The notes beneath the pieces are model-generated. The model made no database searches, was not told the DNA's origin, and was given only the letters and a program-made list of their open reading frames with translations. Both the position numbers and the translations under genes were made by a program. Shown in pieces: positions 1,954 through 57,753 of a stretch of DNA of 64,000 nucleotides. The stretch comes from Pedobacter cryophilus. Its GTDB lineage: Bacteria > Bacteroidota > Bacteroidia > Sphingobacteriales > Sphingobacteriaceae. The DNA lies in contig NZ_SWBP01000002.1 of NCBI RefSeq assembly GCF_005116455.1, forward strand, positions 186,001 through 250,000, read 5' to 3'. The first letter of the stretch is position 1, and each line of letters starts with the position of its first letter.

Positions 1954-4056
1954 ATGTCAAGAGATTTAAGATTCACAAGAAACATTGGAATTGCTGCCCA
2001 CATTGATGCGGGTAAAACAACCACAACTGAGCGTATTCTTTATTACTCAGGTGTAAGTCATAAAATTGGTGAAGTACACGATGGTGCTGCAACAATGGAT
2101 TGGATGGCACAAGAGCAAGAACGTGGTATTACTATCACTTCTGCTGCTACTACAGTTGACTGGAAATACAGAGGACAAACTTACCATATCAATATAATTG
2201 ATACTCCTGGTCACGTAGATTTTACCGTTGAGGTAAATAGATCTTTACGTGTATTAGATGGTTTGGTATTTTTATTCTCGGCAGTTGATGGGGTAGAGCC
2301 ACAATCAGAAACTAACTGGCGTTTAGCTAATAACTATAACGTTTCTCGTATCGGTTTTGTTAACAAAATGGATAGAGCAGGTGCTGATTTCTTAAAAGTT
2401 GTTAAACAAGTTAAAGATATGTTAGGTAGTAATGCAGTGCCATTACAAATACCTATCGGTTCTGAAGATGGTTTCAAAGGAGTAGTAGATTTAATCAACT
2501 TCCGTGGAATTGTTTGGAATGAAGAAGATAAAGGAATGACTTTTACCGAAGTTCCAATTCCTGATGATTTAATTGAAGAAGCAAAAGAGTGGAGAGAGAA
2601 ATTGTTGGAGTCTGTTGCTGATTATGATGAATCATTAATGGAGAAATTCTTTGACGATCCAGAATCTATTACTGAGCGTGAAATTTTAGATGCTTTACGT
2701 AAAGCAGTTATAGATGCAAGTATTGTTCCTATGGTTTGTGGTTCATCTTTCAAAAATAAAGGTGTTCAAACCATGTTGGATTATGTGATGGAATTATTGC
2801 CTTCTCCAATGGATCAAGAAGGTATTAAAGGAACTCACCCAGATACTGGTGCTGAATTAGTACGTAGACCTGATGAAAAAGAACCTTTTGCAGCTTTGGC
2901 ATTCAAAATTGCAACAGATCCTTTCGTAGGTCGTTTATGTTTTATCCGTGTTTACTCAGGAAACTTAGAAGCGGGTTCTTATGTTTATAACGCTCGTTCA
3001 GAAAATAAAGAACGTATTTCTCGTATTTTCCAAATGCATGCTAACAAGCAAAACCCAATTCCTAATGTAGGAGCTGGAGATATTGCTGCGGTAGTAGGAT
3101 TTAAGGATATCAAAACAGGAGATACACTTTGTGATGAAAAGAATCCAATTGTATTGGAATCTATGAACTTCCCTGATCCAGTTATTGGTTTAGCTATTGA
3201 GCCAAAAACTCAAGCTGATGTTGATAAATTGGGTATGGCTTTAAATAAATTAGCTGAAGAGGATCCAACTTTCCGTGTTCATACTGATCAAGATTCTGGT
3301 CAAACCATTATCCAAGGTATGGGTGAGCTTCACTTAGATATTTTAATGGATCGTTTAAAGCGTGAATTTAAAGTAGAAGTAAACCAAGGAGCACCACAAG
3401 TTGCTTACAAAGAGGCAATTACTGGTACAACTCAACATAGAGAAACCTACAAGAAACAAACTGGTGGTCGTGGTAAATTTGCTGATATTCAAATCATCAT
3501 TTCTCCAAACGACGATGACAAAACAGGTCTTCAGTTTGTGAATGAAATTTCTGGTGGATCTATTCCACGTGAATTTATTCCGTCTGTACAAAAAGGATTT
3601 GAAGGTTCATTATCTAACGGAGTACTTGCAGGTTACCCTGTAACAGGTATGAAAGTTAGATTAATTGATGGTTCATTCCACGCAGTCGATTCAGATGCTT
3701 TATCTTTTGAATTAGCAGCCCGTAACGCTTACCGCGAAGCATTGCCAAAATGTAAGCCAGTGTTAATGGAGCCAATTATGAAGATTGAAGTATTAACTCC
3801 TGAAGAAAACATGGGAGATGTAATGGGCGATTTAAACCGTAGAAGAGGTCAGCTACAAGGTATGGATACTAGAGCAGGAGCTCAAGTAATTAAAGCCTTA
3901 GTACCACTTTCTGAAATGTTTGGTTATGTGACTCAATTACGTACCATTACTTCTGGTAGAGCAACTTCAACAATGGAATTTGACCATTACGAGCCAGCTC
4001 CAAAGGGCGTACAAGAAGAAGTAATAGCGAAAGCAAAAGGAAAAGTTACTTCATAG
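1954..4056 (+). CDS. fusA: Elongation factor G
   Basis: EF-G is the GTPase that drives tRNA and mRNA translocation and, with RRF, ribosome recycling. The 700-residue protein has the full G domain: the P-loop AHIDAGKTT (15-23), switch I with the [10 protein letters not shown] block, DTPGH, and NKMD for guanine recognition. Domains II to V follow, with the [13 protein letters not shown] and [14 protein letters not shown] motifs of domains IV and V. Length and motifs are those of the canonical housekeeping EF-G of the str operon. It follows rpsG after a 95-bp spacer that holds a perfect hairpin, and is followed by a palindromic repeat before rpsJ. Confidence 0.98.
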
Positions 4057-54541: not shown

Positions 54542-55141
54542 ATGAGTTCAAAAAAAATGAAAACGCCAGAAAAAGAAACTACTCTATTTATAAAAAATAT
54601 GGTTTGCCCCAGGTGTATTAAAGCTGTTTGGGAAGAGTTAGAGCAATTAAATTACGAAGTGATAGATGTTTTTTTGGGTGTAGCAAGAGTAAAAGGACTT
54701 GTAAATGAGGGTGATATAGCTCAAGTTTTGTTAGCTAATGGATTTGAATTACTAAATGATAAAGACGAAAAGTTAATTGAGCGTATTAAAACAAACATTA
54801 TTGCTTTGGTTCAATCAAAAGATCCGCTTATTCAACAAAATCTTTCTGTTTGGCTAGCCAAACAATTAGATACAGAGTATCAGCATTTAAGTACACTGTT
54901 TTCTGCCGTTGAAGGAATTACTATAGAAAGGTATTTTATTTTGCAACGTTTAGAAAAAGTAAAGGAATTATTAGTGTACAATGAACTAAGCTTAAAAGAA
55001 ATTGCTTTTCAATTAGGGTTTAGCAGTATTGCTCATCTATCTGCTCAGTTTAAAAAAATGACTGGTTTTACCACTACTTATTTTAAAGAAATGGGTAACA
55101 GCAAAAGAAAATCATTAGATAATGTGATTCAGCCGTCCTAA
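54542..55141 (+). CDS. AraC-type regulator with an N-terminal HMA-like metal-binding domain
   Basis: The start is ATG 54542 (MSSKKMKTPEK); a TTG 24 bp upstream is less likely. In 199 residues the protein has an N-terminal HMA-like domain (about 12-75) with the CxxC site MVCPRC (Cys22, Cys25). An AraC-type DNA-binding domain with two HTH motifs follows (about 95-190: LSLKEIAFQLGFSSIAHLSAQFKKMTGFTTTYFKE). It sits directly upstream of copA and copZ, so it is probably a Cu(I)- or Ag(I)-responsive activator that senses metal with its own HMA domain. A terminator follows it, and direct repeats between it and copA are candidate operators. Confidence 0.85.
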   Translation: MSSKKMKTPEKETTLFIKNMVCPRCIKAVWEELEQLNYEVIDVFLGVARVKGLVNEGDIAQVLLANGFELLNDKDEKLIERIKTNIIALVQSKDPLIQQNLSVWLAKQLDTEYQHLSTLFSAVEGITIERYFILQRLEKVKELLVYNELSLKEIAFQLGFSSIAHLSAQFKKMTGFTTTYFKEMGNSKRKSLDNVIQPS

Positions 55142-55144
55142 AAT

Positions 55145-55173
55145 TATATAACTCGTTTTATAAACTATATAAC
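55145..55173 (+). promoter_or_regulatory. Direct repeats TATATAAC 21 bp apart upstream of copA
   Basis: TATATAAC occurs at 55145-55152 and 55166-55173, in the same orientation and two helical turns apart. The downstream copy ends 20 bp before the copA minus-7 box, where an AraC-type activator would touch RNA polymerase. The neighbouring gene encodes such a regulator. Confidence 0.55.
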
Positions 55174-55174
55174 A

Positions 55175-55200
55175 AGCGCTATTTCTTTAGCGCTATTTTT
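55175..55200 (+). terminator. Terminator of the HMA-AraC gene, overlapping the copA promoter
   Basis: AGCGCTA (55175-55181) pairs with TAGCGCT (55188-55194) around TTTCTT, and ATTTTT follows. The T-tail is part of the copA minus-7 box. Confidence 0.7.
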
Positions 55201-55201
55201 G
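55194..55201 (+). promoter_or_regulatory. Minus-7 box of copA
   Basis: TATTTTTG matches TAnnTTTG and ends 19 bp before the copA ATG. No good minus-33 TTTG is present; that position lies next to the TATATAAC repeat, as expected for an activator-dependent promoter. Confidence 0.6.
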
Positions 55202-55220
55202 TGGTGTTATTATAAATATC

Positions 55221-57419
55221 ATGAAAACTCAAAAAGAAATTTTTCCAGTAGTAGGCATGTCTTGTGCTTCTTGCGCCATAAGTGTAGAAAGTATGGTTTC
55301 CGCAACAAAAGGTGTGAAAAGTGCAAGTGTAAATTATGCTAATGAACAATTGCAGGTAGAGTATGATGCTGAGGATACCAATCCACAAAAAATTAAAGAA
55401 GCTGTTTTAGCTATAGGTTATGATTTGCTTATTCAAGCTAGTACGGCAAAAGATGAGCAGGCAGAATTACAAGAAAAGCAACTCAAAAAATTAAAAAGTA
55501 ATATTCTTTGGGCCACTATTTTCACCATTCCGGTGGTGGTTTTAGCCATGTTTGGGATGCACATTCCTTATGCAAATTTGGTGATGTTGGTGTTAAGCAC
55601 CCCTGTAATTTTTGTTTTTGGTAAATCTTTTTTTAGTAGCGCATTTAAATTGGCTAAATACGGTAAAGCCAATATGGATACTTTGGTGGCTTTAAGTACC
55701 GGAATAGCCTGGGTTTTTAGTGTTTTTAATACTTTTTTTGGTGATTTTTGGCTCAATAGACGTTTAACGCCTCATGTTTATTTCGAAGCCGCGGCGGTAG
55801 TTATCCTTTTTATCATGTTAGGGAAATTATTAGAAGAAAGGGCGAAATCTAATACTTCGCAAGCCATTAAGAAGCTCATCGGTCTACAGCCAAAAACAGT
55901 TTTGGTGATAAGAGACGGAAATGAAATGACCATAAAAATTGAAGAAGTAAGAATTGGAGATCGGGTTTTAGTAAAATCAGGAGAGAAAATTGCAGTTGAT
56001 GGAAAGGTCATAGACGGGCACTCTTACGTAGACGAATCTATGATTAGTGGAGAGCCTATTCCGGTAGAGAAATCTACAGATGACAAAGTTTTTGCAGGTA
56101 CCATCAACCAAAAAGGAAGTTTCAGCTTTACAGCCGAAAAAGTAGGTGCCGATACTTTGTTGGCTCATATTATTAAAATGGTACAAGAAGCGCAGGGTTC
56201 TAAAGCTCCGGTGCAAAAATTGGTTGATAAAATTGCCGGCATATTTGTCCCCGTGGTAATGGTGATAGCGCTCATTACTTTTTTTATATGGATGTTTTTT
56301 GGTGGTGAGAACGGGGTTACACAAGGTTTAATGACTATGGTTACCGTTTTGGTAATTGCTTGCCCTTGTGCTTTGGGTTTGGCCACGCCAACAGCAATAA
56401 TGGTAGGAGTGGGTAAAGGTGCCGAAAACGGAATTTTAGTGAAAGATGCCGAAGGTTTAGAGCAAGCCCAACATATAAATGCCATTATCTTAGATAAAAC
56501 CGGAACCATTACCGAGGGAAAACCTAGTGTAGCAGAGACTTTTTGGTTGAATAATGAAGAAACTCTAAAAGGTATTTTATTAGGTTTAGAACAAAAATCT
56601 GAGCATCCTTTGGCCTTATCAATCGTTCAAAAATTAAAGAAAGAGGAAGTAAAAGAAACTCAAATTCAAGATTTTGAAAGCTTAACAGGCAGAGGAGTGA
56701 AGGCTAAAGTGAAAGATGAGTTTTACTATGTGGGCAGCCATGGTTTAATGAAAGATCTCCAAATTGATATTCAAAAGCCAGAAATAGCCAATTGGAGCAA
56801 TAAAGCATATACCATTATTTACTTTTCTTCGGCAACAGCATTAATAGCTGCGTTTGCAATTTCTGATCCTATTAAAATGAGTTCTAAAAAAGCCATTCAA
56901 GATTTAAAAGATTTAGGAATTGACGTTTATATGCTTACCGGAGATGCAGAATCCACAGCTAAAGCTGTAGCAAATGAAGTTGGAATTACAAATTATAAAG
57001 CAGATGTTTTACCTGCTGATAAAGCCGAGTTTATTAAGAAATTACAAGCCGAAGGTAAAAAGGTAGCAATGGTTGGGGATGGAATTAATGATGCTCATGC
57101 TTTGGCTCAAGCCGATGTTTCTATTGCCATGGGCAAAGGTTCTGATATTGCTATTGATGTGGCTAAAATCACTTTAATATCTTCTGAACTGGATAAAGTG
57201 CCGCAAGCCATTTCGCTATCTAAACAAACAGTAAAAGTGATTAAACAAAATTTATTTTGGGCTTTTATTTATAATGTAATAGGCATTCCTATAGCCGCTG
57301 GGGTATTATTTCCTATCAACGGCTTTTTATTAAACCCTATGATAGCTGGCGCTGCAATGGCTTTAAGTTCTGTGTCAGTAGTCACCAACAGTTTAAGACT
57401 AAAATTTATGAAATTGTAG
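55221..57419 (+). CDS. copA: Copper-exporting P1B-type ATPase
   Basis: CopA pumps Cu(I) (or Ag(I)) out of the cytosol. The 732-residue protein has one N-terminal HMA domain with GMSCASC (Cys15 and Cys18 region) and eight membrane helices. It has the ion-binding CPC motif in IACPCALGLATP (Cys381, Cys383) and the phosphorylation site Asp425 in DKTGT. The HP motif follows (SEHPLAL), then GDGINDAHALAQADVSIAMG in the hinge and the two C-terminal helices. All key residues are present. The gene follows the HMA-AraC regulator and precedes a small HMA chaperone gene, forming a compact copper-resistance module. Confidence 0.96.
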   Translation: MKTQKEIFPVVGMSCASCAISVESMVSATKGVKSASVNYANEQLQVEYDAEDTNPQKIKEAVLAIGYDLLIQASTAKDEQAELQEKQLKKLKSNILWATIFTIPVVVLAMFGMHIPYANLVMLVLSTPVIFVFGKSFFSSAFKLAKYGKANMDTLVALSTGIAWVFSVFNTFFGDFWLNRRLTPHVYFEAAAVVILFIMLGKLLEERAKSNTSQAIKKLIGLQPKTVLVIRDGNEMTIKIEEVRIGDRVLVKSGEKIAVDGKVIDGHSYVDESMISGEPIPVEKSTDDKVFAGTINQKGSFSFTAEKVGADTLLAHIIKMVQEAQGSKAPVQKLVDKIAGIFVPVVMVIALITFFIWMFFGGENGVTQGLMTMVTVLVIACPCALGLATPTAIMVGVGKGAENGILVKDAEGLEQAQHINAIILDKTGTITEGKPSVAETFWLNNEETLKGILLGLEQKSEHPLALSIVQKLKKEEVKETQIQDFESLTGRGVKAKVKDEFYYVGSHGLMKDLQIDIQKPEIANWSNKAYTIIYFSSATALIAAFAISDPIKMSSKKAIQDLKDLGIDVYMLTGDAESTAKAVANEVGITNYKADVLPADKAEFIKKLQAEGKKVAMVGDGINDAHALAQADVSIAMGKGSDIAIDVAKITLISSELDKVPQAISLSKQTVKVIKQNLFWAFIYNVIGIPIAAGVLFPINGFLLNPMIAGAAMALSSVSVVTNSLRLKFMKL

Positions 57420-57543: not shown

Positions 57544-57753
57544 ATGGAAACCTTAAAATTTAAAACAAGTTTAAAATGTAGCGGATGTGTGGCTGCTATT
57601 CAATCAAAAATGGATGAATTAGAAAATGTTAAAAAATGGGAAGTGGATTTAACGCAACCCGTAAAAATTTTGACAGTAGAAGGCGATCATTTAAATGAAG
57701 AAGAAATTATCAAGACTTTGAAAGATGCGGGTTACAGCGCAAATAAAATGTAG
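57544..57753 (+). CDS. CopZ-like copper chaperone (HMA domain)
   Basis: The 69-residue protein is a single heavy-metal-associated domain. It starts ETLKFKTSLKCSGCVAAIQ, with the CxxC metal site at Cys12 and Cys15, and ends in a helix and strand (EEEIIKTLKDAGYSANKM). It would carry Cu(I) to CopA and perhaps to the HMA domain of the regulator. It lies 124 bp after copA, with a word-like repeat in the gap. Confidence 0.9.
   Translation: METLKFKTSLKCSGCVAAIQSKMDELENVKKWEVDLTQPVKILTVEGDHLNEEEIIKTLKDAGYSANKM

Follow-up and report, generated by a model that had tools for sequence, protein, structure and literature searches.

A metallochaperone-like domain fused to an AraC domain: a probable copper-responsive regulator of copA-type operons in Bacteroidota

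Organization of the regulator-copA-copZ locus

The window, that is, the whole 64-kb stretch of Pedobacter cryophilus DNA that was analysed, carries a regulator gene followed by copA and then by copZ. The first-pass annotation of this DNA had placed the regulator directly upstream of the two copper genes, and the coordinates obtained here agreed with that placement. In the open reading frame listing of the window the regulator starts with an ATG at 54542, and the features recognised in and around the three genes were the following.

54542..55141 (stop included), plus strand: gene for the putative HMA-AraC copper regulator, 199 aa (open reading frame, HTH_18 match, HMA by profile and model)
54575..54757, plus strand: HMA (metallochaperone) domain, approximately residues 12-72 (secondary structure of the model, profile match)
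54605..54616, plus strand: CxRC motif C22-P-R-C25, presumed Cu(I) site (C22, R24 and C25 invariant in 13 aligned relatives)
54854..55084, plus strand: AraC-type DNA-binding domain, residues 105-181 (PF12833, Foldseek matches to AraC domains)
55143..55152, plus strand: predicted distal operator half-site ATTATATAAC (the whole site has a held-out motif score of 17.2)
55164..55173, plus strand: predicted proximal operator half-site ACTATATAAC, spaced 21 bp from its distal counterpart
55175..55194, plus strand: terminator-like hairpin within the spacer, without conservation among relatives
55194..55201, plus strand: copA promoter -7 box TATTTTTG (TAnnTTTG), its TTTG lying at the distance conserved among relatives (offset 55 or 56)
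55221..57419, plus strand: copA, copper P1B ATPase carrying a CPC motif and, at its N-terminus, an HMA domain (619 bits with TIGR01511, whose cut-off is 397)
57544..57753, plus strand: copZ, HMA copper chaperone (PF00403, 32.9 bits against 24.8)

The C-terminal half of the regulator matched PF12833 (HTH_18) with 61 bits and PF00165 with 32 bits in Pfam, against curated cut-offs of 33.6 and 26.6, respectively, and an AraC-type helix-turn-helix above its curated cut-off is what defines membership of the AraC/XylS family. For this DNA-binding part, Pfam and NCBIfam returned generic AraC matches only, apart from a weak NCBIfam match to Ada that spans the same AraC region. Pfam found no MerR domain, the AraC domains being matched instead, and neither a CsoR fold nor a BlaI-type domain with CxC pairs was matched by Pfam or NCBIfam.

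A metallochaperone-like N-terminal half

The N-terminal motif of the regulator reads KNMVCPRC. The Pfam HMA family (PF00403) was not among the matches of this protein up to an E value of 1, and 8 of 13 relatives matched it weakly (best E 0.0019). We then built a profile from the N-termini of the 13 relatives and searched it against solved structures. The HMA region of ATP7B was matched with an E value of 8e-18 and the CopA and CopZ structures with E values of approximately 1e-6 to 1e-5 (2e-5 for one CopZ match), copper HMA proteins occupying the top of the ranking and zinc and mercury ones lying below. A direct hhalign comparison of the regulator N-terminus with the local CopZ was weak (probability 35.7%, E 0.0004), and it is thus the profile search of solved structures that carries the homology argument. 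In the AlphaFold models, whose mean pLDDT was 87.7 for the whole regulator and 85.6 for its N-terminus, the secondary structure elements of the N-terminal part follow the order beta-alpha-beta-beta-alpha-beta. Foldseek matched this fold to Menkes domain 6, CCS, CsoZ, Atx1 and Hah1, mostly copper chaperones and HMA domains of copper ATPases, with probabilities of about 1 and modest E values (0.02-0.1). Judged by profile and model, the N-terminus is an HMA-like metallochaperone fold with an MxCxxC site, in a sense wider than PF00403. The fusion of an HMA-like CxxC domain to an AraC domain, as described by the first-pass annotation, was recovered by the HTH_18 match, the profile, the models and Foldseek.

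A 21-bp direct repeat with fixed spacing to the -7 box

The sequence TATATAAC occurs ahead of copA at positions 55145 and 55166, with a spacing of exactly 21 bp, and these are two of only three plus-strand copies in the whole 64-kb window. A putative operator motif was learned by expectation maximization on 70 non-redundant regulator-to-copA regions. They derived from 80 intergenic regions, a set from which duplicates and loci lacking a same-strand copA match downstream had been removed, after discarding the window itself, regions shorter than 40 bases and any region that had a 25-mer in common with one already kept. The learned motif is a direct repeat, with a self-match peak of 0.79 at 21 bp and a next best value of 0.40 among offsets 9 to 26. 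None of 5,000 dinucleotide shuffles reached the score of the held-out window site, the shuffle maximum being 14.3, and this site was the best one on both strands of the window, with a runner-up of 10.9. The reading of these repeats as operator-like in the first-pass annotation was supported. Scores above 8 were found in 76 of the 80 intergenic regions (model trained on 70 of the 80), and a scan of the 80 named loci (644,937 bases) found 80 sites above 15, distributed over 62 of the loci and all on the strand of the regulator, compared to 2 in the reversed-sequence control; most of the scanned loci had also served in motif training, and these site counts are not independent of the motif.

The tetranucleotide TTTG lies outside the trained motif. 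Of the 80 sites, 61 have it at offset 56 and 9 at offset 55, together 70, and it occurred at most 4 times at every other offset from 36 to 85. In 56 of the 61 sites with TTTG at offset 56 an A was found three bases before it, as in TAnnTTTG, and the spacer of these 61 sites contained no conserved -33 element. According to the accessible part of a study of Flavobacterium psychrophilum, TAnnTTTG is the main -7 box of that bacterium, at -12 to -5 (PMC9723704). With this numbering the half-sites fall at approximately -64 to -55 and -43 to -34, and the proximal one would reach the usual -33 region, the position expected for an activator.

A terminator-like hairpin (55175-55194) does overlap the -7 box (55194-55201), as had been noted in the first-pass annotation, but a stem in the spacer between operator and -7 box was found at just 7 of the 80 relatives' sites. 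The hairpin is hence not a conserved part of the system, and we dropped the overlap as an element of the mechanism. Its incidental nature, like the fixed distance from site to -7 box and the phylum-wide spread described below, goes beyond the first reading of this DNA.

Several other loci, for example L061 (at 6879), L071 (7071), L073 (7175), L095 (7070) and L106 (7128), have a second predicted operator in the copA-copZ gap, again with TTTG at the right distance, which suggests that copZ has its own copper promoter in those genomes. The copA-copZ gap of the window contributed none of the six best plus-strand sites, the sixth of which scores 4.9.

Genes marked by the predicted operator in the host genome

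The pattern formed by the repeat plus TTTG had three matches in the 4-Mb host genome and none in a backwards control. One is the copA site of the window. Another precedes an operon for small secreted proteins, a histidine-rich protein and a product of 910 aa, read by us as a multicopper oxidase, which would make this a periplasmic copper operon. The third (C1:18749) was set aside as a chance match, since it lies inside a coding sequence, read as that of a nucleotide-sugar dehydrogenase. The host also contains a second HMA-AraC copy, 48% identical to the regulator of the window, in a locus (L151) where copA comes first, copZ second and the regulator gene third. Directly after this second HMA-AraC gene lies one for a DUF326 four-helix, cysteine-rich protein of the copper-storage type (2482-2826, minus strand). 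The site of this second copA is weaker (13.6) and was missed by the strict pattern, its TTTG being correctly placed. Five P1B ATPases were found in the genome, and only the two CPC CopA pumps carry the site; none was found at the CPH-type, zinc-type and CcoI-type ATPases, whose subtypes were read from their motifs.

Other copper sensors were sought in the host among CsoR, MerR-type and BlaI/CopY-like proteins. This search returned no CsoR domain. It did return two MerR-type proteins, neither with a cysteine pair like that of CueR, and two BlaI/CopY-like proteins, both devoid of cysteine.

Distribution and gene neighbourhoods

Relatives of the regulator were detected in 124 of 151 sampled genomes of the family (window protein as query, E 1e-12 or better) and in 182 of 395 genomes of the phylum (profile query, 1e-15 or better). 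The 80 named loci belong to Bacteroidota and to a few Ignavibacteria, Melioribacteraceae and Rhodohalobacter. Plasmid-borne copies were seen in Hymenobacter and others, most of them bearing an AraC family or helix-turn-helix annotation. Deduplication by the last 150 residues reduced 166 open reading frames to 152, and 174 distinct relatives entered the CxxC count. The first-pass annotation had made its reading depend on conservation of the CxxC in orthologs, and 162 of these 174 retain it. As the peptide pattern of the contig scan contained MVC and was thereby biased towards relatives that retain the first cysteine or both, CxxC was rechecked in 20 low-ranked relatives from a pattern-free search of the family genomes; 15 of them have it, and only 4 combine a site scoring above 12 with a correctly spaced TTTG.

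The copper assignment also stood up to the neighbourhood analysis: a copper or heavy-metal gene lies within 1.4 kb of 118 of the 162 CxxC relatives. An operator-like site was found downstream of an equal number (118 of 162), and 108 have both. For 44 of the 162, no metal gene was recognised within 1.4 kb, and for 44 a downstream operator-like site is lacking; the former count rests on ten tblastn queries, which other metal genes would escape. Metal-gene linkage and operator-like site co-occurred in 9.2 of 10 independent tree pairs (median p 0.004).

Forty-four of the 80 named loci show a P1B ATPase match, 300 residues or longer, that begins no more than 1.3 kb downstream. These ATPases are at least 54% identical to the CopA of the window in 32 cases and 35-47% identical in 12, and in 42 of the 44 loci an operator-like site follows the regulator at short distance. 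Such a site was also present in 20 of the 36 loci lacking an adjacent P1B ATPase; permeases, HMA-membrane proteins and multicopper oxidases appear, from their translations, to be among the genes near it. The remaining 16 loci have neither a P1B ATPase as defined above nor a site above 15.

In L043, L046, L048, L051, L053 and L081 a permease resembling the SO_0444-type metal efflux family takes the place of copA behind the same predicted operator. CxxC copies with no recognised metal gene or adjacent operator were seen in L041, L045, L047, L057, L072, L091 and L099, and these may act in trans or on other genes. Tandem HMA-AraC genes are found upstream of copA in L062 (4001-5204), L111 (4001-5229) and L139; in L062 and L111 the second copy is 37-39% identical to the regulator of the window and carries CxRC.

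A sister clade without recognised metal-gene neighbours

Twelve relatives read MVSxRC and have lost the first cysteine. Together with 12 CxxC relatives (eleven MVCIRC, one MVCERC) they form a single Sphingobacteriaceae-family clade of 24 rows with 100% local support (L163, L164, L170, L173-L177, L179-L192, L195 and L198, L178 not being a member). None of the 24 has a metal-gene neighbour recognised by the ten tblastn queries; the translations of adjacent genes resemble CsbD-type, DUF892-type, MlaE/MlaF-type and repeat proteins, and some members retain the repeat with TTTG before unrelated genes. The clade is possibly a branch that lost the copper job, with a repurposed regulator. We had considered the loss of the cysteine as an independent test, with a metal gene near 0 of 12 relatives lacking CxxC versus 118 of 162 having it, and dropped this contrast because all 12 fall in one clade and provide no informative independent pairs.

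Discussion

The system in the window is probably a one-component, copper-responsive regulator of copA-type operons, most likely an AraC-type activator with an HMA fold as its effector domain. What the sequence analysis shows is the domain architecture, the linkage of the genes, the repeat with its spacing to the -7 box and the genes that carry it. We infer that its ligand is Cu(I), that it activates rather than represses and that its copies pair on copper. Rising cytosolic Cu(I) would bind the CxRC site, and two copies of the regulator would then occupy the 21-bp direct repeat, roughly ATNNTRYAA-N12-ANNNYRYAA. With the proximal half-site at the -33 position and its spacing to the -7 box fixed, the bound pair would recruit RNA polymerase and switch on copA, copZ, the second copA operon and the putative periplasmic copper-oxidase operon. 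Pairing might occur through one Cu(I) bridging two CxRC sites. A single Cu(I) bridging two sites is seen in dimers of HMA chaperones.

The same proximal half-site, by reaching the usual -33 region, would also allow a bound protein to block the polymerase, and the regulator could then be a copper-sensitive repressor whose apo-protein sits on the repeat until Cu(I) releases it, as with CopY and CsoR. We consider this unlikely: a repressor would have no need for the fixed TTTG distance kept in 61 plus 9 of the 80 sites, which favours an activator, the spacer shows no conserved -33 element with which the promoter could function unaided, and AraC-family proteins are mostly activators. The nature of the metal raises another alternative, since HMA domains are found in zinc and mercury proteins too, 12 of the 44 adjacent P1B ATPases are just 35-47% identical to the CopA of the window and some loci have permeases; the protein might accordingly sense another soft metal or several of them (Ag, Au, Hg, Zn, Cd) and not mainly Cu(I). 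This appears improbable, given that the N-terminal profile ranks copper HMA proteins at the top and that the host site marks the CPC CopA pumps and the presumed multicopper-oxidase operon, not the zinc-type pump.

It could further be argued from the sister clade, half of whose members lack the first cysteine while some keep the repeat, that the HMA domain is merely structural or copper-buffering, the regulator being always on or receiving its signal from elsewhere. Retention of CxxC in 162 of 174 relatives, with all 12 exceptions in a clade without recognised metal neighbours, makes this very unlikely in our view.

Several known systems share parts of this arrangement. CopY is a one-component copper sensor of copA/copZ-type operons. 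Ada joins an AraC domain to an N-terminal cysteine-based module used as a sensor, but that module is a zinc Cys4 methyl acceptor and not an HMA domain, and the present regulator has no DNA-repair domain. AraC, MarA/SoxS and YesN-type proteins have the same C-terminal DNA-binding domain, and the I1-I2 half-sites of AraC are direct and spaced 21 bp, as in the predicted operator described here; in the present regulator an HMA fold of about 60 residues replaces the usual ligand-binding domain, in a whole protein of about 190 aa. CopZ, Atx1 and the N-terminal HMA domains of CopA have the same fold and an MxCxxC-type site, whereas that of the regulator is fused to a DNA-binding domain and has an Arg conserved between its two cysteines (MVCxRC) as well as a GFE segment that is likewise conserved. 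As described in the available portion of a marine-bacteria survey, CsoR is also a one-component copper sensor of copA/copZ-type operons, and CueR is a one-component Cu(I)-responsive activator of copA (PMC10141476). CsoR and CopY differ in being repressors with other folds. CueR has a MerR fold and acts on an overlong promoter spacer, in contrast to the AraC domain, the HMA sensor and the 21-bp direct repeat that stands in place of a -33 element. The regulator is thus an AraC-family protein by its domain that most likely acts like a copper activator such as CueR, yet is not CueR.

In titles and abstracts of the open literature, to which the search was confined, we found no description of an HMA-AraC copper regulator. 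A copper survey of the flavobacterium Bizionia argentinensis reported, in the text accessible to us, MerR- and CopY-like proteins without a copper site and proposed two ArsR-like candidates, the word AraC being absent from that text (PMC11213822). The marine-bacteria survey, in its available portion, lists Bacteroidota with only two-component and ECF-type copper systems (PMC10141476). As far as these portions go, neither survey names a sensor of the HMA-AraC type in Bacteroidota.

A wider reading, which we offer as a tentative possibility, is that Bacteroidota and their neighbours have in this protein their general sensor of cytosolic copper, so far overlooked: an HMA-fold activator that would receive Cu(I) from CopZ by HMA-to-HMA exchange and would sit as a shared-Cu(I) pair on the 21-bp repeat, a sister branch having given up the metal job, along with the first cysteine in half of its members, and having been rewired to other genes. 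If true, the compact protein might find use as a copper biosensor part, and the passage of copper from chaperone to regulator between identical folds would become testable. The readable operator would allow prediction of copper regulons across many environmental and gut bacteria, and the regulator, found in about half of the sampled genomes of the phylum, would fill the place of its apparently missing copper sensor.
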